A program made the position numbers and the translations under genes. A DNA stretch of 64,000 nucleotides from Gimesia algae (GTDB lineage Bacteria > Planctomycetota > Planctomycetia > Planctomycetales > Planctomycetaceae). The notes under the pieces are model-generated. The model did not search any database. It had not been told where the DNA came from and saw only the letters and a program-made list of their open reading frames with translations. This document shows positions 1,502 through 13,142 of the stretch, one piece after another. Where the stretch lies: contig NZ_CP036343.1 of NCBI RefSeq assembly GCF_007746795.1, positions 4,997,357 through 5,061,356 of the forward strand, given 5' to 3'. Numbering within the stretch: position 1 is the stretch's first letter; the number at the start of each line of letters is the position of its first letter.

Positions 1502-4500
1502 TTATTCCAACGTTTCGCTGGCCGCGTCCATCTCTTTCCCTGGTTCTGCTATTGAAAATTGAATCTCTCCCGTCTTAAATGGGGGCGCATTCTTATCAGC
1601 GTAATTTGGTAAGGTAAAGCGGACACGCACCGACTGCCCGGGTTTCGACTGAATCACAGTTTCTGCCTGCCCCCGCTCCACTTCTCCCAGGCGAATCGGC
1701 AGACCTCGGATTTCATGCTGAGCACCAAAACCAAAGGGCAGTAACCACCAGCCTACCGGTCCTGCCGGTTTTCTGTCCTGATCAATGCTGATCGATTTGC
1801 CAGTTTCATCCAGGGCAGAGAGTTTCGTGTAGTAATTGTGAGTCAATAAACGGGGAAGCATAATTTCGACGAATTGATTCCCTGTGTTACGATAATAAAA
1901 TCGAGGCAGTACCTGCTGCCCGATCGCGTATTGTTCATTATCGGGCTCGAAACGGACTCCTGCCTGTAATCCGTTTTTGGCAACTGGCCCCCATGCAATC
2001 TTCCCGTTATCGATCGCCTGTGAGCGAATAAACTGTTTTCTGAGAATGATTGTATAACGGGGATAGGGAACATTATTCTCAATGCGAGGTAATGTCAGCC
2101 GAATCGACCAGATCAGATACTCATAACCATCACCTGGTTGAAACAGTGTCAGAAGTTCAAAGCCGACATCTTCCGGTAGCTGACGCTGATCGGCAATTTT
2201 CTGCAACATCGAGAATTCCGCATTGGTTACGTCCAGCTCATTGCGTCTGATTTTCATTCGGCGGATCGCTGCGACAACTTCCTCTTCCGTTAAAGGCGGT
2301 TGATCCATTCCTCCCAGGCTCCGATGTGCGGAATTGAAACCATGGATTGCCGCAGCCAGTGGCGTGTCATCTGGCATTTTGGGTCCCGGTTCGTTGAGTT
2401 TGACAGCCTGTCCTGCCGCATCCAGTTGATTGAACAGTCGCGTCCGCACCTCGTGTCTGAACGGTGCCCCCTGGGATTGATCAAGAACCAGTTGAACCTG
2501 CCAGCCCTGAAAACGTTCCTCGTCCGCGCCGTCGACTTCAGATACGAATTCCAATCGCCAGTCAGCAGCGAGTCTACGCAGCTCTGCGATTTCACGAAAT
2601 TGTTGTAGCTGTTCCGCGGAAAGTCCGGGAATCTTCTTGTCCAGCAAAGCCCAGCGAACCGACGCCACCACTTCGTCATCGGTCAGAAGCGGCTGCCCTT
2701 TGTCGACGGGATCCAACTGCTGTTGCTGGTTAAATTCCTGGACGACATCGGAAAGTTGCCTGCTGCCTGCCGGAACGATTTTCAAATCGCGACAGAACGC
2801 CGCTATCTTCTCTACCGGAACCATATACGATTTATTCGCATTCTCTCCCAGAAAGCGGGTCCCCAGTAATGTCAGTCCCGCCAGTTGCCCCTCCTTGAAC
2901 AGAGGAGTTCCTTCGGGAAGACTGCGATCCAGTTGAATGAGGCCTTCATACCGATGTTCTTTCTTTAAAGGAGGCAACGCCAGTTCCGCTTGATTGTCAA
3001 AGGACACGATGCGTGCTGCCTGCGGAGTTAAAGTCAAGTGCGGGGAACTCCCGGGATACATGGCCGCGAGTTCATCGTCTACCGCCAGTAAAACATAATC
3101 TGACGGCTGATAGTCGGTCAACTTCTGCTGTGTCCGATACACGAACAGTTCTTTCGTACTCTGCGGCAGATAGACCGCATCGATGGGTGGACGATTCGGA
3201 ATTTCAAGAAACGTCCGATCAACGGCATGGGGAGCCCCCTCGGGAATAATCCCTGCTGTCCCCGCGGTGACCACGCATGTTTCAGAACCGGCATCGACCA
3301 GAATTCCAGGTATCGCACGGCGGGACTGATCCCGAAAGTAGACCAGCACCAGTCTGGCTATTGCCTTTTCAGAGACTGTTTTCGGTGGTAACCCCTTCGA
3401 AGCGATACTTACCGATTGTTTGATCGCTGGTTTGATTGAAGTAGACCTGGATTCAGGAGAGAGTTTCAACTGGTCGCATAATTCGACCATTTTTCCCACT
3501 GGGACAACAAAGGTCCCCTGGGGATTATCATTCATATATCGGGGTCGGCTCCGAGTGATTCCCACAAGTTTTCCCTCTTTGAAGAGGGGAACTCCCGAAG
3601 GCAGCTGACGATCGATTCCGAATTCCACCAGCCGCGAAGTCTCTTTTTTCTTTCCGGTCGCGTCAGTTTTCGTTTTATGTTTCAGAGTGGTAATGCGCGT
3701 GGCATGAGGAGTCACATATAATTCGCTGGTCCCCCCCAACAGAATCGCCGATAACTGATCTCCGACAGCCAGCTGAATCTCATCCACCGGTCGATAGTCG
3801 GTTAGCTTTCGCTCCGTACGGTAAAGGAATAAATCTTTCGTACTCTCTTTCTGATATTCGAGCCCAATCTTTCCCCGTCCCGGGATGTCGAGGTACATTT
3901 GCGCGGCAATCGGCGGTTTCCCCTCGGGGCCCAGGCCGGCTGTGATCACATAGGTTTCAGCGCCGGCGTTCACCATGACGCCACGCACGGCCCGATGCGT
4001 TCGATTCTGAAACGAAATCAGAGTCAGTTGGGCAATCGCTTTTTCCGCAGCCGTTTTTGGTCGGACCTTGATCGATTCTTCCGTACTTCCAAAAAATTCG
4101 GGGTGGAGCTGACGGATTGCATTACCTGCACTCTCTGAAGGTGGAGCAGGACGACTTTTCAAATAGGAATTCAGCGCAGTCAGAGTGCCCGGCTTCAGAC
4201 TTTCGACCAGGTTACCGACCTCGGCCGGCGTGTCATGCGGATTCTCATGAATTCGTCCGATCGATTGATTCTCTTCTACTTTGATGATGTCAATCTTACC
4301 TCTCACAAGCCCCTGATCCAGGGCAATCAGTTTCATCCCGACTTTGATTCCGTCTTTCTTTCCTATCGAAAGGACCGCTTTCCCACCAGCGACAGAGATC
4401 ACCTGTCCCTTTATGGATATGTTGTCTGTAGGGACATTTGCTTCAGGCGAACGAACCCATAACAGATCGGCCAATTCCGGTGTCCCCGGATTCACACGCG

Positions 4501-6034
4501 ACTGGCGACTGGTGGTCCAGGCACCGCGAATTTCATCATCGGCGAGTCGAATGGAAAGTTTACCGAAACGTGCCTCACCCTCACGCCAGGTTCCGTTAAA
4601 GCGACGTTCGATGCGCGACCATTTTAAATCGACCGTGCCCGAGGCAACATTGTCCGGCTGTTTGTAGGTCCCTGCATAAAGTCCTGCTTCCTCGCGGTTC
4701 AATATGACTGTCCCCCAGCCTTCACTCTTCCATTCACCGGCAATGTCAGGCGGTTCGGTGGCCTGCCAGAAACACATTCCCAGTACCACAGCGGACAGAG
4801 CAGCGAGCATGAGAAGCACTCCCGTTTTACGACCTGAGTTCGAAAAGAACCCACCGGGTTCTGTCTGACTTTCGAGAGAAGAAGGTAAAGGAACTTCCGT
4901 CGGTTGCTGCACGTGGGCCAGACATTCTTCCAGTACCCCTGAGACTTCACTGGCGGTCGCGAAACGAGCGGCGGGTTCTTTTTCTATCAGTCGGTTGACG
5001 ATCTGACAGAGCCATTCCGGAATCTCGGGATTGATTTCACGAATGGGTCGCGGCTCTTCATCCGTGATCCGTCGCAGTACGCCATAACTGGTTTCCGAAC
5101 GGAACGGAGGCCGACCGGTACACATCGTGTAGAGCACGCTGCCCAGGCTGAACAGGTCACTAGCCTGATCGACCGTCTCGCCGCGTGCCTGTTCGGGTGA
5201 CATGTATTGAGGCGTTCCTGCGATGATGCCGGTCCGCGTCAGACTGGCATCATCTGCGGCGCGGGCCAGACCAAAGTCCGTCAGCTTGACCCGTTCGACC
5301 CCATCCGCCAGCAGAATGTTCGCCGGTTTAACATCGCGGTGTACCAGTCCCTGCGCGTGAGCTGCCGCCAGTCCGTTGGCAGCCTGCATACCAATCCGCA
5401 GAATCTCCACCAGAGCCAGTGGTCCGGTATCATCCAGTCGACGCTGTAAAGAGGGTCCTCGTACATAAGACATCACCAGATAAGGTAGCCCCTCGGTTTC
5501 CGCCACGCCATGAATTTCAATCACACTGTCATGCACGACCGCAGCGGCAGCTTGCGCTTCTCGTGAAAACCGTTTACGCGCGGCTCCACTGCTGCCCAGA
5601 TGCGGTGCCAGAATTTTGATAGCGACATATCGATTTAATGCGGGGTCGAAGGCTTTCAAGACTACGCCCATCCCTCCCGCGCCGATGACCCCCACAATCT
5701 CATACGTTCCCAGGCGGCCCAGCATCCGCTCATCATCCGAGGGGGCCAGCAGGTTCATGACGGAACTGTGAGAGAATGATGCTTCATTTACTCTAACCGC
5801 ATCCAGAGCAGAATCCTTCCCACCCGGATATTCCAGCGTGAGCGTCTCGTCCTGAAGCGAATCCCGGAGTGACACCCAGATATCGTCGCTGGCTGCGCCC
5901 GCTTCCAGTTGCTGGCGGCAATCGCTGCATTCATCCAGATGGAGTTCAAAATCAGCCTGTTCCCCTGCGCTCATTTTCTGCTGCAGGAACAGTTCGATCG
6001 ATTCGGGATGACATGTCGTTGATTTGTTTTTCAT
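1502..6034 (-). CDS. Giant Ser/Thr protein kinase with zinc-finger N-terminus and tandem protease-like C-terminal domains
   Basis: A 1510-residue protein. The ATG at 6034 is chosen because AGGAG lies 8 bases upstream; a longer frame opens at 6061. Residues 32-39 give HxxxCxxC, an anti-sigma-type zinc finger. Residues about 108-366 are a Hanks-type kinase: GAGGMG loop, AIK lysine (K140), HRDVKPAN (D234), DFG (D253) and GTPQYMSPE. A membrane helix lies at about 404-424, so the rest should be extracytoplasmic. The outside part has a small beta domain (430-510), a module (541-615) shared with the M56 protein at 22398, two related trypsin-fold-like domains (660-860 and 880-1086), and two copies of a region beginning 'DDEVVASVRW' / 'EEEVVAAIRR'. 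It lies 56 bp downstream of an ECF sigma gene, a common planctomycete pairing. It probably transduces an outside signal to the sigma factor. Confidence 0.9.
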   Translation of the reverse strand: MKNKSTTCHPESIELFLQQKMSAGEQADFELHLDECSDCRQQLEAGAASDDIWVSLRDSLQDETLTLEYPGGKDSALDAVRVNEASFSHSSVMNLLAPSDDERMLGRLGTYEIVGVIGAGGMGVVLKAFDPALNRYVAIKILAPHLGSSGAARKRFSREAQAAAAVVHDSVIEIHGVAETEGLPYLVMSYVRGPSLQRRLDDTGPLALVEILRIGMQAANGLAAAHAQGLVHRDVKPANILLADGVERVKLTDFGLARAADDASLTRTGIIAGTPQYMSPEQARGETVDQASDLFSLGSVLYTMCTGRPPFRSETSYGVLRRITDEEPRPIREINPEIPEWLCQIVNRLIEKEPAARFATASEVSGVLEECLAHVQQPTEVPLPSSLESQTEPGGFFSNSGRKTGVLLMLAALSAVVLGMCFWQATEPPDIAGEWKSEGWGTVILNREEAGLYAGTYKQPDNVASGTVDLKWSRIERRFNGTWREGEARFGKLSIRLADDEIRGAWTTSRQSRVNPGTPELADLLWVRSPEANVPTDNISIKGQVISVAGGKAVLSIGKKDGIKVGMKLIALDQGLVRGKIDIIKVEENQSIGRIHENPHDTPAEVGNLVESLKPGTLTALNSYLKSRPAPPSESAGNAIRQLHPEFFGSTEESIKVRPKTAAEKAIAQLTLISFQNRTHRAVRGVMVNAGAETYVITAGLGPEGKPPIAAQMYLDIPGRGKIGLEYQKESTKDLFLYRTERKLTDYRPVDEIQLAVGDQLSAILLGGTSELYVTPHATRITTLKHKTKTDATGKKKETSRLVEFGIDRQLPSGVPLFKEGKLVGITRSRPRYMNDNPQGTFVVPVGKMVELCDQLKLSPESRSTSIKPAIKQSVSIASKGLPPKTVSEKAIARLVLVYFRDQSRRAIPGILVDAGSETCVVTAGTAGIIPEGAPHAVDRTFLEIPNRPPIDAVYLPQSTKELFVYRTQQKLTDYQPSDYVLLAVDDELAAMYPGSSPHLTLTPQAARIVSFDNQAELALPPLKKEHRYEGLIQLDRSLPEGTPLFKEGQLAGLTLLGTRFLGENANKSYMVPVEKIAAFCRDLKIVPAGSRQLSDVVQEFNQQQQLDPVDKGQPLLTDDEVVASVRWALLDKKIPGLSAEQLQQFREIAELRRLAADWRLEFVSEVDGADEERFQGWQVQLVLDQSQGAPFRHEVRTRLFNQLDAAGQAVKLNEPGPKMPDDTPLAAAIHGFNSAHRSLGGMDQPPLTEEEVVAAIRRMKIRRNELDVTNAEFSMLQKIADQRQLPEDVGFELLTLFQPGDGYEYLIWSIRLTLPRIENNVPYPRYTIILRKQFIRSQAIDNGKIAWGPVAKNGLQAGVRFEPDNEQYAIGQQVLPRFYYRNTGNQFVEIMLPRLLTHNYYTKLSALDETGKSISIDQDRKPAGPVGWWLLPFGFGAQHEIRGLPIRLGEVERGQAETVIQSKPGQSVRVRFTLPNYADKNAPPFKTGEIQFSIAEPGKEMDAASETLE

Positions 6035-6090
6035 TCTGTTATCTCCTGACAACTGATACACACAGCCCTCTCGCTTCTAACAGGTGTGTG

Positions 6091-6687
6091 TTACATTTCC
6101 CGTTCATACTCCGCCGCCTTCTCCTGGATTCTGCGCACCACGCGACTGCGGGCAGCATAAATGGCACCTCGATTTTTGCCATACTCTTGCGCGACAACTT
6201 CGATCTCGCGTCCCTCAACTGCGGTCAACCAGAACAGATTCCAGGTATCCTCATGAAATTCCTGACGCACGTGCCGGGCAGCCCAGCGAAAGACTTCCCG
6301 CCGATACTCTAACCGCAACAGGCTCGAATCGGGTCCGTTATGCGAAGCGTGTTCATTCAGTAATGCCTGCAATTCCGATTTGCCTGAACCCCGATCAGGC
6401 TTGCCGCGCATCAGCGCATTGAGAATGGCGTTATGCGCCACACGATGCAGCCACGTGCGGAATTTTGCCCGCTCTGGATCATGGGGACGCTGCTCGACCG
6501 CTTTGGAAATGGCTACCAGAACCAGTTGCGCCACATCATCGGCATCCGCTTCCTGCATTCCTTTTTGACGCGCCATTCTCAAAATCACCGGCCGATAGAT
6601 TTCCACGAACTCATGCCACGCCGCCTGATCCGCAGGATCGCGGACGCGAATCAGCAAACTGGCTCGTGTATCAGGAGTTGCGTTCAT
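6091..6687 (-). CDS. ECF-type RNA polymerase sigma factor
   Basis: 198 residues, the usual size for an ECF sigma factor. Region 2 is visible in the first half ('WHEFVEIYRPVILRMARQKG', 'ADADDVAQLVLVAISK', 'RFRTWLH'-type core reading KFRTWLHRVAHNAILN). Region 4 is at the end ('WLTAVEGREIEVVAQEYG' followed by a helix 'NRGAIYAARSRVVRRIQEK'). It precedes the kinase gene in the same direction with a 56-bp gap, so the two are likely co-transcribed. Planctomycete sigma factors of this kind usually lack a classical anti-sigma gene and are thought to be controlled by the neighbouring kinase. That coupling is inferred here. Confidence 0.92.
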   Translation of the reverse strand: MNATPDTRASLLIRVRDPADQAAWHEFVEIYRPVILRMARQKGMQEADADDVAQLVLVAISKAVEQRPHDPERAKFRTWLHRVAHNAILNALMRGKPDRGSGKSELQALLNEHASHNGPDSSLLRLEYRREVFRWAARHVRQEFHEDTWNLFWLTAVEGREIEVVAQEYGKNRGAIYAARSRVVRRIQEKAAEYEREM

Positions 6688-7750: not shown

Positions 7751-8896
7751 ATGAAGACCTCCACCAATCCTACACGTCCTGTCACTCTTTGTTCCTGTTT
7801 TCTGGCAGGGAGCTTTGCATTATTTTTCACCGTTCTCCCATTGGCTGCTGCGAACCCAACAGACTATCAGCAGAAACTTCCCGCTATTCGCAAGCTGGTC
7901 ACCGAGACCATGACAAAAGAAAAGTTGAAGGCAGTTCTGCTCGGGGTGACTGTTAAAGGAAAAGAACTCCTGATCCTGGCGGAAGGAGAAACGATGACGG
8001 GAATCCCCGCGACGGCTGACATGCATTTTCGCAATGGTAACGTCGCAGTAGCTTATATGGGCAATCTGTTCTATCAGCTCGTGGATGCCGGCATCGTGAA
8101 AGCCGACGATCCGGTAGGGAAATGGCTGCCCGACCTGCCTGAGTCGCAGACGGTCACACTCGAAATGCTTGTTAACGGCACTGCCGGCTACCCCGATTTC
8201 ATGCCCATGGATCTGTTTCAGAAAAAACTCTACGCCAACCCCTTCCATCAGTGGACGCCGCAGGAACTGAGCAGACTGGCTTTCACCAAGCAGCCTCTAT
8301 TCAACGCGGGCAGCGATTGGAACTACGCCCACACCAACTTCGTCATTCTGGGTCTCGCGCTGGAAAAGGCAGCTGGCAAACCTTTCGGCGAACTGATGCA
8401 GGAGCGCGTCCTTACTCCTTTTAGCATGCAGGAGACAGCCGCGCCAGGCACCCCTTACATTCCAGAGCCCGTCCTGCATTCCTATACTGATGAACGCGGC
8501 TTCTATGAAGACGCGACCTTCTGGAATCCTTCCTGGACGCTGGCACGCGGTGCGGTTCAATATTCGACCATCGGCGACACCCTCGCCGGCTTCCGCGCTG
8601 TCGGACAGGGAGAGCGACTGAAACCGGAAACCTTCCAGGCCATGCTCGCTCCCCAGACGCCCGGCATGAAGTTCTGGACGAAAGACATGTACTATGCCCA
8701 GGGGATCGTGGTCAATAAAGGCTGGCTCACCCAGGCCCCCAGTTTCGCCGGTCTCTTCGGCACAGCCGGCTATCACCCGGCCAAAGACATTACCATCGCC
8801 CTCTGGTGCACCCGCTCCATCGACGCGAGTTCAGAAGGCAACCCGATTTCCGGACTGTATCAACGGCTCACCAAAATCCTGACGTCGGAAAATTGA
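7751..8896 (+). CDS. Exported beta-lactamase-fold (serine hydrolase family) protein with altered active site
   Basis: 381 residues; signal peptide at about 12-34 ending 'LPLAAANP'. The architecture follows the beta-lactamase/class C serine hydrolase family: 'LVDAGIVKADDPVGKWLPDL', 'VTLEMLVNGTAGYPDF', 'NFVILGLALEKAAGKPFGEL', and a late 'GLFGTAGYHP'. The nucleophile motif is different. Where relatives read FRxGSxxK, this protein reads FRNGNVAV, so Ser becomes N97 and Lys becomes V100. The Y-x-N motif reads Y192-A-H194. It probably does not work by the usual acyl-enzyme mechanism. It may be a binding protein or use another mechanism; this is inference. It sits just upstream of a BlaI/M56 operon but has its own gap of 373 bp before it. 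Confidence 0.8.
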   Translation: MKTSTNPTRPVTLCSCFLAGSFALFFTVLPLAAANPTDYQQKLPAIRKLVTETMTKEKLKAVLLGVTVKGKELLILAEGETMTGIPATADMHFRNGNVAVAYMGNLFYQLVDAGIVKADDPVGKWLPDLPESQTVTLEMLVNGTAGYPDFMPMDLFQKKLYANPFHQWTPQELSRLAFTKQPLFNAGSDWNYAHTNFVILGLALEKAAGKPFGELMQERVLTPFSMQETAAPGTPYIPEPVLHSYTDERGFYEDATFWNPSWTLARGAVQYSTIGDTLAGFRAVGQGERLKPETFQAMLAPQTPGMKFWTKDMYYAQGIVVNKGWLTQAPSFAGLFGTAGYHPAKDITIALWCTRSIDASSEGNPISGLYQRLTKILTSEN

Positions 8897-9269: not shown

Positions 9270-9698
9270 ATGGCAAAGTCAAACAGCAAACGGCCGGCAC
9301 TGAGCCCTCTTGAACATGCTGTCATGCAGATTGTCTGGAGCGATCAGCCTTTGACGGGCGAAGATGTCCGCGAGCGCATGGATGAAACTCATGGCCTGAA
9401 AACGTCGACCGTGCGCACTTTGCTGCGGCGACTCGAAGCAAAAGGCTATGTCACACACGACATCGAAGGACGAACTTTCATTTACCGAGCGACGGTGGAA
9501 CAAACCAATGTTGCGGCTTCCGCCGTCCGGTCTATTGTCGACAAGTTCTGTTCAGGATCTGTCGAAAACCTGCTGGTCGGACTGGTGGATGACAAGTTAA
9601 TCTCTTCAGAACGCCTGCAGGAACTGGCACAGCAGATTGCGTCGGCGGAAGAAGAACAGGCAAAACACAACAAACCCAAACGCACGAAGCGTTCTTAA
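9270..9698 (+). CDS. BlaI/MecI-family transcriptional repressor (pair 1)
   Basis: 142 residues, near the family norm. It has the winged-helix signature 'LSPLEHAVMQIVW', then 'LKTSTVRTLLRRLEAKGYVTHDIEGRTFIYRA', followed by a C-terminal dimerisation helix region. BlaI-type repressors bind operators as dimers and are inactivated by proteolysis triggered by a partner M56 membrane protease. That partner starts 66 bp downstream. The ATG at 9270 gives the expected N-terminus. Two dyads overlap the promoter just upstream. The last residues are lysine/arginine-rich. Confidence 0.95.
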   Translation: MAKSNSKRPALSPLEHAVMQIVWSDQPLTGEDVRERMDETHGLKTSTVRTLLRRLEAKGYVTHDIEGRTFIYRATVEQTNVAASAVRSIVDKFCSGSVENLLVGLVDDKLISSERLQELAQQIASAEEEQAKHNKPKRTKRS

Positions 9699-9764
9699 GA
9701 TATGAATGAACCAACGAATTCTTTCGTTAGCAGAGTTTGATCCCCGTCTGACCGGAGATACCCG

Positions 9765-12700
9765 ATGTATCAGATCTCAAACCAATGGATACTGTTCCTG
9801 CTGGATGTATCTACCAAAGCCCTGCTTCTGGCAGCGATTGCCGGGATTGCTTTGAAATTGTTCAAACTGCAGGACTCCAACCTGCGGCATCGCATCTGGT
9901 CTGGCGTCCTGGCGGGTATGTTGCTCCTGCCTTTGCTGACGCTGGCACTTCCTACCATTTCACTCTCGTTGCCTGCCAGTTGGACGAACTTCCAATCAAA
10001 CGTGAAGCGTACACCTGCCCACCCCACACCGGTTGTCAGTAACAATATGAATCCCAGCGGTCCTGTAGTTATTGATAGCGTTCCACTTGAAAATCGTGAA
10101 ATGCAAGTCAGTCAGACTGAAAACGTGCCGCATCCGAAATCTCAGTATCTGGAAGCCACAGACGCATCAACGCCTGTTGCAGACTGGTCCTTCCCACAAT
10201 TGACACAGCTGATTCCCGGCGCACTCCTGATCTTCTGGAGCGCCGTGAGCCTGCTGTTTGCATCCAGACTGATTGCAGGACTCTGGTCGTCCTCACGTAT
10301 CTTACGCCGCGCAACGATGATAGACGGACCACAACTCCTGAACTGTCTCGTTGAACTGCCGCCCGCGATCTTAAAACATATCCCTGCCATCCGCGAAAGC
10401 CAGGAAGTGCTCGTACCCGTTACCGTCGGATGGGTACGCCCCACAGTACTGCTGCCGGAAGAATGGCAAACATGGTCGGACGAAAAACTGACCGCCATCG
10501 TAGCGCATGAATTCACACATGTGGCCCGACGTGACTTCTTTGTGACACTGGCCGCTGAACTGAATCGCTGCCTGTACTGGTTTCATCCGGTCTCCTGGTG
10601 GTTACGCACGCGTTTATCAGATCTGGCTGAGGAAGCCTGCGATGACGCCGCTATCAGCCACACGGGAGATCGTACCGGATATGCGCGACACCTGTTGGAA
10701 GTAGCAACATCGCTGAGAACGGGCAGTGGTCAGCGCGTGACTCCAGGAGTTTCCATGGCGCGCACCTCCAATGTGGAATCGCGTATTACCACCATTCTTG
10801 ACTTCAAAAGACCCCTTTCACAGCACCTGACCTGGCGGAGTACCACAGCCATCGCGGTCATCGCCACCTTCGTCATCATCGTCGCTGCAGCAATTCACCC
10901 CACCTCTGTAGCCGCCACGCCCGCAGAACAACCAGTGGCAACCGAGAGTACCACTGATTCGACCGACACAGAAACAGTCCACATTCAGGGACAGGTCACT
11001 GACACCAGCGACAATCCGATTCCGGGTACAAGAGTTCGTCTCTATCGAATGCAACGACCGAAGTGGCACTCCGGAAGTAATACCGCAACGTTACTCACCG
11101 AATTAAAAGTGGACAGAGAAGGTCGCTTCGATCAAACCGTTGCCAAAAATATAATCATACAGGAAAGGAAAAACCATGAGAGTGGGCAGCATCTTTCTGT
11201 CCGTCATATGTGGTGGACGGTCCTTGTTGTCTCAGCACCGAATTACGCCTACTCAACCTTCCGAGCCGAACAGTCGGGTCCCATCATCAATGGTAAGAGT
11301 TACCTTTCGCCTGGTTTTCTAAATCAACCGTTTACTGTCCAACTTCGTCCCGCTGTGACTATTCACGGGAGATTACTCTCCATCGAAGGCCAGCCTGTTG
11401 AGGGCGTAAATGTATCCGTTTTCCAGCTCAGGCGCCCGCATGCATCAAGGTTTGACGCATGGCTTCAGCAGACATCCAAAGCTCCACTCCCCAAGTCAGA
11501 TAACCGTGCCATAATGCTGGGAGGCTCTGCTTCTCAATACACTGCCTTCCCGTGCAGCGAATTTCATCTGCCTCTCCAATGTGTTCCGCCTGTCGTGACA
11601 AACAGTTCAGGCAGTTTCGAACTGTCGGGTTTGGCCGCGAAAGACGATCTTGTGATCCTGAGAATCAATGGTCAGGGTATTACAGACACAGTCATTCACG
11701 TACTTGCCTGCGATATGAAACCGGTTTATGGACGTCCTTATGCAATAAGAAGTGAATCGGGGGCCTACTATGGTCGAACGTTCGATTTTATCACCCAGCC
11801 CAGTGTGCCCGTCTATGGCGTCGTCCGGGATATCGAAACCAGACAACCTCTTGCCGGCATCCCGGTTGCTGTGTCGGTGATGTATGGATCAACAATATAC
11901 CAGAAAGGCTATATCTCAACAAAGACAGACCAACAGGGGCGTTATCGTATTGAGGGGCTTCCCATTCCCCCCGTAGGAACGGGAAGATATGATCGCAACA
12001 GACTTGCGGTTCGCCCGGGTAAGCTGCCTTACATTGAAACCGATTCACTCTCCGTACCCCGTGGAGATGGAGTCAACCCGGTCGAGTTTAATATTGAATT
12101 TCGACGAGCCGTGATCGCCAGAGGCAGAATCACTGACAAAACTACCGGCGAACCAATTGCAGCAGCAGAAATCTACTACTCGCCGTATGCTAAAAACGAG
12201 AATTGCGATCAATATCTTCGCTATTCCGATGGTTCTCGCAGGTTGCTGGGCAATCACGATACCAGATACCTGAGCGACGCACATGGCTACTTTGAGATCC
12301 CGGTGATTCCCGGTCGCGGCGTGATAGGCGCGACAATTAATGAGGGAGAATATATTCCGGGTTTTGGCGCCCAAAAGATTGAGGCATACCGGGGAAAAGA
12401 CCCGAGTCAACTGCCAAATATGCTTTCGGATTCCCTGGTACCTTCCCTGTTCCACTCGCTCAAAGAAATTGATGCACCGGTTGACAAACCTGAGTTTGAA
12501 CTATCGATGTATGTTGATCCCGGTATAACATTGACTATCAACTTCGTGGATCCACAGGGAAAACCCGTCAAAGGAGTCTGGGGAAATGGACTCAACGGCT
12601 CTTCCCAGGGGAAGGCAATTCAGGATGACCATGCCCAGGCAACAGGTCTGGCAATTGGTAAGATTCGCGCTATGGACTTCACAGACAATACCAACAATCT

Positions 12701-13142
12701 CACCCGTCTCCTGCGTCTGATTCCTGAAAAAGGACAGACGCATTTCACTTTTAAATTATTCCCCCCCAGTCGGCTCACAGGGCGGCTCATCGCCCCCGAA
12801 GGCCGGCCCCTGACAAATACCTTCCTGGAAACGCGCCACCAGAATGACCCGTATATGATTGGATCACTGCCTGAGACTCAGACCGACAACGAGGGTCGAT
12901 TCGATTACACTTTGCCTACAGGCACAAACTTTAAAATTCTTGCTCGCACGGACAACAACTACTTTATCATCGTGAAAGACCTCGAAAACCCAATGCCCAA
13001 AAACATTGATTTGGGTGACCTGATCATTGATCCGGAAGCGAAATCCTGGTCGCAAGCGAAAGCCAAAAGAGAACCGATCATCACAGAACTGATTTCCAAA
13101 GTCGTTGACGATCAAGCACCGGAATCAGGTACGCAAGAGTAA
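9765..13142 (+). CDS. M56 (BlaR1-like) membrane metalloprotease fused to carboxypeptidase-regulatory-like repeats (pair 1)
   Basis: 1125 residues; GGAG precedes the ATG. Membrane helices lie near 15-35, 45-65 and 150-172. The protease motif is HEFTH at 248-252 with the later acidic zinc-ligand region 'EEACDDA' near 289. A final helix at about 360-377 puts the rest outside the cytoplasm. From residue 405 on, there are several carboxypeptidase-regulatory/Ig-like beta-sandwich repeats, seen as 'IQGQVTDTSDNPIPG', 'IHGRLLSIEGQPVEG', 'VYGVVRDIETRQPLAG', 'ARGRITDKTTGEPIAA' and 'LTGRLIAPEGRPL'. No penicillin-binding domain is present, so the signal is unlikely to be sensed as BlaR1 senses beta-lactams. 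It should cleave or trigger loss of the adjacent BlaI. It is closely related to the protein at 59769. Confidence 0.92.
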   Translation: MYQISNQWILFLLDVSTKALLLAAIAGIALKLFKLQDSNLRHRIWSGVLAGMLLLPLLTLALPTISLSLPASWTNFQSNVKRTPAHPTPVVSNNMNPSGPVVIDSVPLENREMQVSQTENVPHPKSQYLEATDASTPVADWSFPQLTQLIPGALLIFWSAVSLLFASRLIAGLWSSSRILRRATMIDGPQLLNCLVELPPAILKHIPAIRESQEVLVPVTVGWVRPTVLLPEEWQTWSDEKLTAIVAHEFTHVARRDFFVTLAAELNRCLYWFHPVSWWLRTRLSDLAEEACDDAAISHTGDRTGYARHLLEVATSLRTGSGQRVTPGVSMARTSNVESRITTILDFKRPLSQHLTWRSTTAIAVIATFVIIVAAAIHPTSVAATPAEQPVATESTTDSTDTETVHIQGQVTDTSDNPIPGTRVRLYRMQRPKWHSGSNTATLLTELKVDREGRFDQTVAKNIIIQERKNHESGQHLSVRHMWWTVLVVSAPNYAYSTFRAEQSGPIINGKSYLSPGFLNQPFTVQLRPAVTIHGRLLSIEGQPVEGVNVSVFQLRRPHASRFDAWLQQTSKAPLPKSDNRAIMLGGSASQYTAFPCSEFHLPLQCVPPVVTNSSGSFELSGLAAKDDLVILRINGQGITDTVIHVLACDMKPVYGRPYAIRSESGAYYGRTFDFITQPSVPVYGVVRDIETRQPLAGIPVAVSVMYGSTIYQKGYISTKTDQQGRYRIEGLPIPPVGTGRYDRNRLAVRPGKLPYIETDSLSVPRGDGVNPVEFNIEFRRAVIARGRITDKTTGEPIAAAEIYYSPYAKNENCDQYLRYSDGSRRLLGNHDTRYLSDAHGYFEIPVIPGRGVIGATINEGEYIPGFGAQKIEAYRGKDPSQLPNMLSDSLVPSLFHSLKEIDAPVDKPEFELSMYVDPGITLTINFVDPQGKPVKGVWGNGLNGSSQGKAIQDDHAQATGLAIGKIRAMDFTDNTNNLTRLLRLIPEKGQTHFTFKLFPPSRLTGRLIAPEGRPLTNTFLETRHQNDPYMIGSLPETQTDNEGRFDYTLPTGTNFKILARTDNNYFIIVKDLENPMPKNIDLGDLIIDPEAKSWSQAKAKREPIITELISKVVDDQAPESGTQE

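Follow-up and report, generated by a model that had tools for sequence, protein, structure and literature searches.

Many receptor kinases of planctomycetes are encoded next to sigma factor genes, and in Gimesia, several of the extracellular parts of these sigma-linked kinases match no Pfam family. One such kinase, encoded in a 64,000-nucleotide stretch of the Gimesia algae genome (here called the window, with position 1 as its first letter), carries two related extracellular domains, D1 and D2, that resemble trypsin-like proteases with catalytic residues missing. What might a pair of dead proteases do on the outside of a signaling protein? The initial annotation read them as noncatalytic binding domains used as an outside sensor. 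Our analysis assigns a fold with confidence to one of these unmatched extracellular parts and proposes a role for it that can be tested, and it describes a sigma-linked planctomycete receptor kinase whose outside sensor plausibly includes a dead HtrA-fold pair, unmatched in the family databases searched.

Architecture of the Kinase and Its Gene

The kinase gene has the limits first given for it (Table 1), since the ATG at 6034 is aligned across orthologues; an upstream GTG at 6061 opens the mechanical open reading frame. Residue numbers start from the ATG, and numbering from the GTG runs 9 higher. That the protein is a kinase is confirmed by its PF00069 match and by the VAIK lysine and HRD and DFG motifs of a Hanks-type enzyme. 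A single hydrophobic segment separates the kinase domain from D1 and D2, which places both outside the cell, as had been claimed; the runner-up hydrophobic stretch (hydropathy of 1.5) is the glycine-rich loop of the kinase domain. Neither the small extracellular domain nor the C-terminal extracellular region has a Pfam match, and the latter aligns with the C terminus of the G151 kinase at an E value of 2.8e-156.

Two elements extend the initial annotation, which had concerned D1 and D2, namely, an N-terminal zinc-finger motif and an adjacent ECF sigma factor gene. The isolated N terminus of the kinase scores 26.0 bits against zf-HC2 (cutoff, 22.2), and H32, C36, and C39 of the HxxxCxxC motif are invariant in 14/14 kinases. 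As judged from its sequence, the N terminus bears a ZAS-type (zf-HC2) motif, and a putative sigma-binding function is suggested by the adjacency of the two genes. The RsgI N-terminal anti-sigma domain has no family match in the kinase, whose N terminus fits zf-HC2 instead. The sigma gene product matches Pfam Sigma70_r2 (E = 6e-13) and scores above the cutoff for TIGR02937.

Table 1. Coordinates, within the window, of the kinase gene, its encoded parts, and the adjacent sigma factor gene
Feature	Position	Strand	Residues	Remarks
ECF-type sigma-70 factor gene	6091..6687	minus		directly upstream of the kinase gene, 56-base gap
Membrane Ser/Thr kinase gene	1502..6034	minus	1510 aa	zinc finger, kinase, transmembrane segment, ectodomain
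Zinc-finger anti-sigma-type motif	5900..6013	minus	C8/H9, H32xxxC36xxC39	zf-HC2; ligands invariant
Hanks-type protein kinase domain	4955..5704	minus	111-360	PF00069, E = 1e-45, 156.5 bits
Single transmembrane segment	4766..4825	minus	~404-423	hydropathy 2.3
First extracellular domain	4427..4714	minus	441-536	common to many planctomycete kinases without D1/D2
Small extracellular domain, 'GQVISV...IKVGM'	4172..4420	minus	539-621	duplicated in G008
D1, degenerate trypsin/S1C-like	3464..4072	minus	655-857	VITAGL, KDLFLY, SGVPLF
D2, degenerate trypsin/S1C-like	2777..3406	minus	877-1086	VVTAGT, KELFVY, EGTPLF
C-terminal extracellular region	1517..2734	minus		also in kinases without D1/D2

Predicted Fold of D1 and D2

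The motif SGxPLF..GKLVGI is not specific to proteases, as evidenced by the CBS domain of IMPDH, which also fits it ('GGVPITKNGKLVGI', L060). Motif matching alone was therefore dropped as proof of protease kinship, and evidence from the fold was needed. An AlphaFold2 model of D2, built from eight sequences, was confident (pLDDT of 81.9, pTM of 0.82), and a Foldseek search of the PDB returned Deg9 as its best match (E = 2.5e-8), with M. tuberculosis HtrA, DegP, DegS, the S1C domain of RsgI9, and MamO also among the matches. VIA-align Z scores lay between 15 and 17 across all 50 matches listed; those for Deg9 (Z of 16.7, 3.5 Å, 179 residues), MamO (Z of 16.3, 3.0 to 3.1 Å, 175 to 178 residues), and RsgI9 (Z of 15.9, 3.2 Å, 178 residues) fall within 1 unit and count as ties. 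The D1 model, from the same eight-sequence alignment, was poor (pLDDT of 49), and its best matches were the same HtrA-type families (E = 6.3e-6, Z of ~10.5). Because D1 is 43% identical to D2 over 198 amino acids (E = 2e-56), its fold rests on homology more than on its own model; this identity also confirms the proposed relationship between residues 660 to 860 and 880 to 1086. The structural comparison with DegP and S1C domains, which had been named as a check on the trypsin-like fold, thus came out in its favor, with confidence for D2 and weakly for D1, both matching HtrA-type domains best; neither model pointed to a fold unlike chymotrypsin-like barrels, the outcome that would have spoken against the initial reading.

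The other suggested check, a profile search, gave a divided answer. Each domain alone had no relevant match in Pfam or NCBIfam, and neither the D1-D2 tandem nor the D family profile had one among PDB sequences; a Cupin_2 match (E = 0.24) and a GTPase match (E = 0.1) were judged to be chance. On the positive side, the D family profile aligned with a profile of nine S1C domains from the same genome (E = 1.1e-4, probability of 56%) with a score of 35.5, against 25.4 for the best of 100 column shuffles and ~12 for two reversed controls, and this alignment lines up 'ELF' with 'DVA/DLA.' The best bridge to HtrA at the level of single sequences is an HtrA-like protein from another planctomycete (L059; E = 0.016). 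The models support a PA clan S1C two-barrel fold, well for D2 and weakly for D1, and we regard the two domains as structural relatives of S1C and not as an HtrA protease. Like the HtrA/Deg proteins (MEROPS S1C, PA clan), they have a double beta-barrel fold and a C-terminal helix, and their 'DLxxxR,' 'SGxPLF.xGxLxGI,' and 'VVPV' motifs are the counterparts of 'DLAVLKI,' 'SGGPLLN.xGEVIGI,' and 'FAIPV' in HtrA/Deg.

Loss of the Catalytic Residues

Unlike HtrA/Deg proteins, D1 and D2 have an incomplete His-Asp-Ser triad. The protease-like motifs first quoted are exact in the sequence (VITAGL at 3932 to 3949, VVTAGT at 3257 to 3274, SGVPLF at 3581 to 3598, and EGTPLF at 2897 to 2914), and the substitutions first described are also present: the TAxHC position has no histidine in either domain, nor in any other copy, and the serine is kept only in D1, as S813, with glutamate in its place in D2. 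Glutamate likewise replaces serine in 6/6 aligned single-domain relatives (PEGTPLF or PEGTVLF). The Asp position, which had not been raised, is occupied by D in D1 (KDLF) and by E in D2 (KELF). In place of the PGNSGG oxyanion loop of HtrA, the domains have LP-(S/E)-G, and the profile alignment shows this loop to be shorter by three residues ('LP---EGTPLF' versus 'NPGNSGGPLL'). No PDZ domain was matched in the whole protein at an E value of ≤1 or in its parts at an E value of ≤10. Because the triad is incomplete and the oxyanion loop is apparently shortened by three residues, the sequences make catalysis by D1 or D2 very unlikely.

Conservation and History of the Domains

D1 and D2 are under purifying selection. 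Among orthologues, dN/dS is 0.10 to 0.14 for D1 and 0.13 to 0.25 for D2, values that rule against decay of the domains, though the kinase domain is held more tightly (0.02 to 0.04). Within the D family, conservation in 12-residue windows peaks (0.85 to 0.89, against a mean of 0.61) on the pseudo-active-site loop and the next strand. This conserved loop and strand could be a retained binding site; alternatively, they could be retained for folding. In the tree, D1 has a long stem and groups next to the D2 copies of close relatives, consistent with a tandem duplication after which D1 diverged. In L049, one of the two D repeats has apparently been lost by recombination, and the kinase is intact.

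The small extracellular 'GQVISV...' domain is itself duplicated in L092, the orthologue in G008; tandem duplication therefore affects more than one ectodomain of such kinases.

Distribution, Linkage to Sigma Factors, and Exchange of Modules

The D family is rare, with members in a few Planctomycetaceae. A scan of ~85,000 species genomes, in which one exact peptide pattern was demanded, found it at six loci, and in a 392-genome sample across the phylum, it occurs only in close relatives. The Gimesia algae genome has no copies beyond D1 and D2, and the plasmids searched gave no match.

Within this narrow distribution, the gene order is informative. A sigma factor gene followed by a kinase with fused D domains is found in L049, L050, G008, and G009, and a sigma gene also lies just upstream of the more distant kinases L087, L088, L090, L094, and L095. 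At L053, the order is sigma factor, zinc-finger kinase, and then a separate protein ending in a D domain, and at L051, a kinase is followed by a separate D protein at the contig edge. Because the linkage is kept across fusion and separation, sigma factor, kinase, and D domains appear to form one system. In G151, the sigma gene is retained, as are the zinc finger, kinase domain, first ectodomain, and C terminus of the kinase, but other domains stand in place of D1 and D2, which indicates that the middle of the ectodomain is exchangeable. The L049/G010 kinase stops right after its D domain and has no C-terminal region, so a D domain can be the outermost part.

At L054 (5699-7558), a reading frame with a D domain is preceded by fragments of a sigma factor and of a kinase, as though decay of the system were under way there. 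The L051 and L054 records are titled 'Candidatus Kuenenia stuttgartiensis'; a genome search puts what are apparently the same contigs in the family of Gimesia algae, and the titles may be wrong.

A Proposed Sensory Mechanism and Its Alternatives

Given an HtrA/trypsin fold without its catalytic parts, D1 and D2 most likely bind a signal and do not cut proteins. We consider it rather probable that the protein serves as the receptor kinase of the adjacent ECF sigma factor, with the dead HtrA/S1C-fold domains as its exchangeable extracellular sensor. Of the initial reading, the fold and the loss of catalysis are supported; binding and sensing we infer, as roles made plausible by linkage, exchange, and purifying selection. 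Under this proposal, the zinc-finger segment and the kinase domain lie in the cytoplasm, joined to the ectodomain by a single membrane helix. The groove that survives in D1 and D2 (pseudocatalytic loop and next strand) would bind a ligand, perhaps a peptide, a cell wall fragment, or a polysaccharide. Ligand binding would alter receptor assembly and switch the kinase, which would phosphorylate either the zinc-finger segment or the sigma factor; the sigma factor would then be freed to redirect transcription. Precedents are RsgI9, an anti-sigma factor with a cellulose-binding S1C protease-like domain (PMC12203970), and the kinases PknS and PknT, which phosphorylate the neighboring ECF sigma factors EcfK and EcfP, respectively (PMC13147305, PMC8999054). 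The kinase probably controls the adjacent sigma factor in this or a similar way. More tentatively, we put forward a wider claim, that tandem dead HtrA-fold domains form a new family and serve as the exchangeable ligand sensor of a receptor that is anti-sigma factor and kinase in a single protein. Such a receptor would link its ECF sigma factor to a signal from outside by both sequestration and phosphorylation. A scheme joining zinc-finger sequestration to kinase phosphorylation was not described in the literature searched.

D1 and D2 might instead have a passive role, as spacers or as parts of the assembly, and keep the C-terminal region, which would then be the true sensor, at a distance from the membrane. 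That region is conserved also where other modules occupy the middle of the kinase, which is consistent with this idea, as is the intact kinase of L049 despite its apparent loss of a D repeat. However, the L049/G010 kinase has a D domain outermost and no C-terminal region to hold out; a spacer role makes little sense where a D domain ends a separate protein beside the kinase, as in L053 and L051; and the most conserved D stretch is the pseudo-active-site loop. We therefore think a spacer role unlikely.

A second alternative concerns the output of the system. The sigma factor could be activated directly, in the manner of EcfP/PknT, by phosphorylation of its region 2.2, leaving the zinc finger as a relic. 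The planctomycete groups ECF59, ECF61, ECF62, and ECF217 are listed as phosphorylation regulated, and groups under kinase control, ECF43 and ECF59 among them, have a kinase gene nearby (PMC8999054, PMC8103513). Published ECF sigma factors activated by kinases lack the acidic DAED motif, which phosphorylation replaces (PMC8999054, PMC8103513), but the Gimesia algae sigma factor retains DADD in region 2.2, and most of its relatives have DAED, unlike the ECF43 type. Direct activation of the EcfP kind is thus not indicated, and the invariance of the zinc ligands in all 14 kinases also speaks against a relic, so this route seems improbable. We favor zinc-finger sequestration that would be relieved by signal and kinase. 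Because the zinc-finger anti-sigma motif and the kinase share one chain, the question of whether the receptor sequesters or phosphorylates is directly testable.

That D1 and D2 bind metal ions, making the system a metal sensor, is a much weaker prospect. The idea comes from MamO, a metal-binding pseudoprotease (PMC4794232) that is among the best fold matches of D2; a fold match by itself carries no information on function, however, and the D family has no invariant His or Cys and no visible counterpart to the di-histidine motif of MamO. Least credible of all is a D1 that remains an active or self-cleaving protease: the D1 domains of G000 (Gimesia algae), G008, and G009 retain the serine and have an acidic residue at the Asp position (E in G008, D in the other two), but D1 has no histidine and a shortened oxyanion loop, and glutamate stands for serine in all other aligned family members.

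Relation to Known Systems

In the logic of its design, the protein comes closest to RsgI9 from Clostridium thermocellum (PDB 7sjy), an anti-sigma factor that binds cellulose through an S1C protease-like domain (PMC12203970). Both are sigma-control membrane proteins with an S1C-like outside part. RsgI9 differs in being an RsgI anti-sigma-I factor without a kinase and with a single S1C domain joined to an NTF2 domain, whereas the Gimesia algae protein combines a zinc finger with a kinase, is encoded next to an ECF sigma factor, and has two tandem S1C-like domains; it is thereby a second case in which a protein linked to sigma control has an HtrA-type fold on its outer side. MamO of magnetotactic bacteria (PDB 5hma) is the closest known example of a trypsin-like domain that is no longer a protease and serves another function; it shares its fold with D2, and metal binding has taken the place of proteolysis (PMC4794232). 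MamO is neither a kinase nor a sigma regulator, and its metal-binding di-histidine is not seen in the D family. Tandem domains of the D1/D2 kind are found in neither protein.

With the ECF-linked Hanks kinases (PknS-EcfK, PknT-EcfP, and those of planctomycete ECF59, ECF61, ECF62, and ECF217), the protein shares the position of its gene next to that of an ECF sigma factor and the design of a receptor that crosses the membrane once and varies in its outside part, and it differs in its extra zinc-finger anti-sigma-type segment and in the acidic region 2.2 of its sigma factor. Work on PknS-EcfK suggests that the outside part can keep such a kinase inactive without a signal (PMC13147305).

Other Loci in the Genome and the Window

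Other degenerate trypsin-like domains occur in Gimesia algae. L086 (G000:C1:5427093-5427419, plus strand) encodes a membrane protein that seems to combine an FHA domain on the inside with a degenerate domain of trypsin-like type on the outside ('ITSGSV' for TxxHC and 'YNWNGSPLL' for GNSGGPL), a second layout in this genome with signaling inside and a pseudoprotease outside. L081 to L083 (G000:C1:5392427-5394037, plus strand) form one 837-residue frame with three tandem Trypsin_2 matches, mostly without catalytic residues, and at L085 and L076 (G000:C1:4926732-4928056, minus strand), an intact HtrA-like gene adjoins one for a protein of degenerate Trypsin_2 type that has a PDZ-like part ('WILTKAS,' 'EDCGGVIV'). 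Within the window, positions 9270 to 13142 (plus strand) encode a BlaI-type repressor and then a membrane protein of the BlaR1/M56 peptidase type that contains carboxypeptidase-regulatory domains; a beta-lactamase-fold protein is encoded near this pair, at 7751 to 8896.
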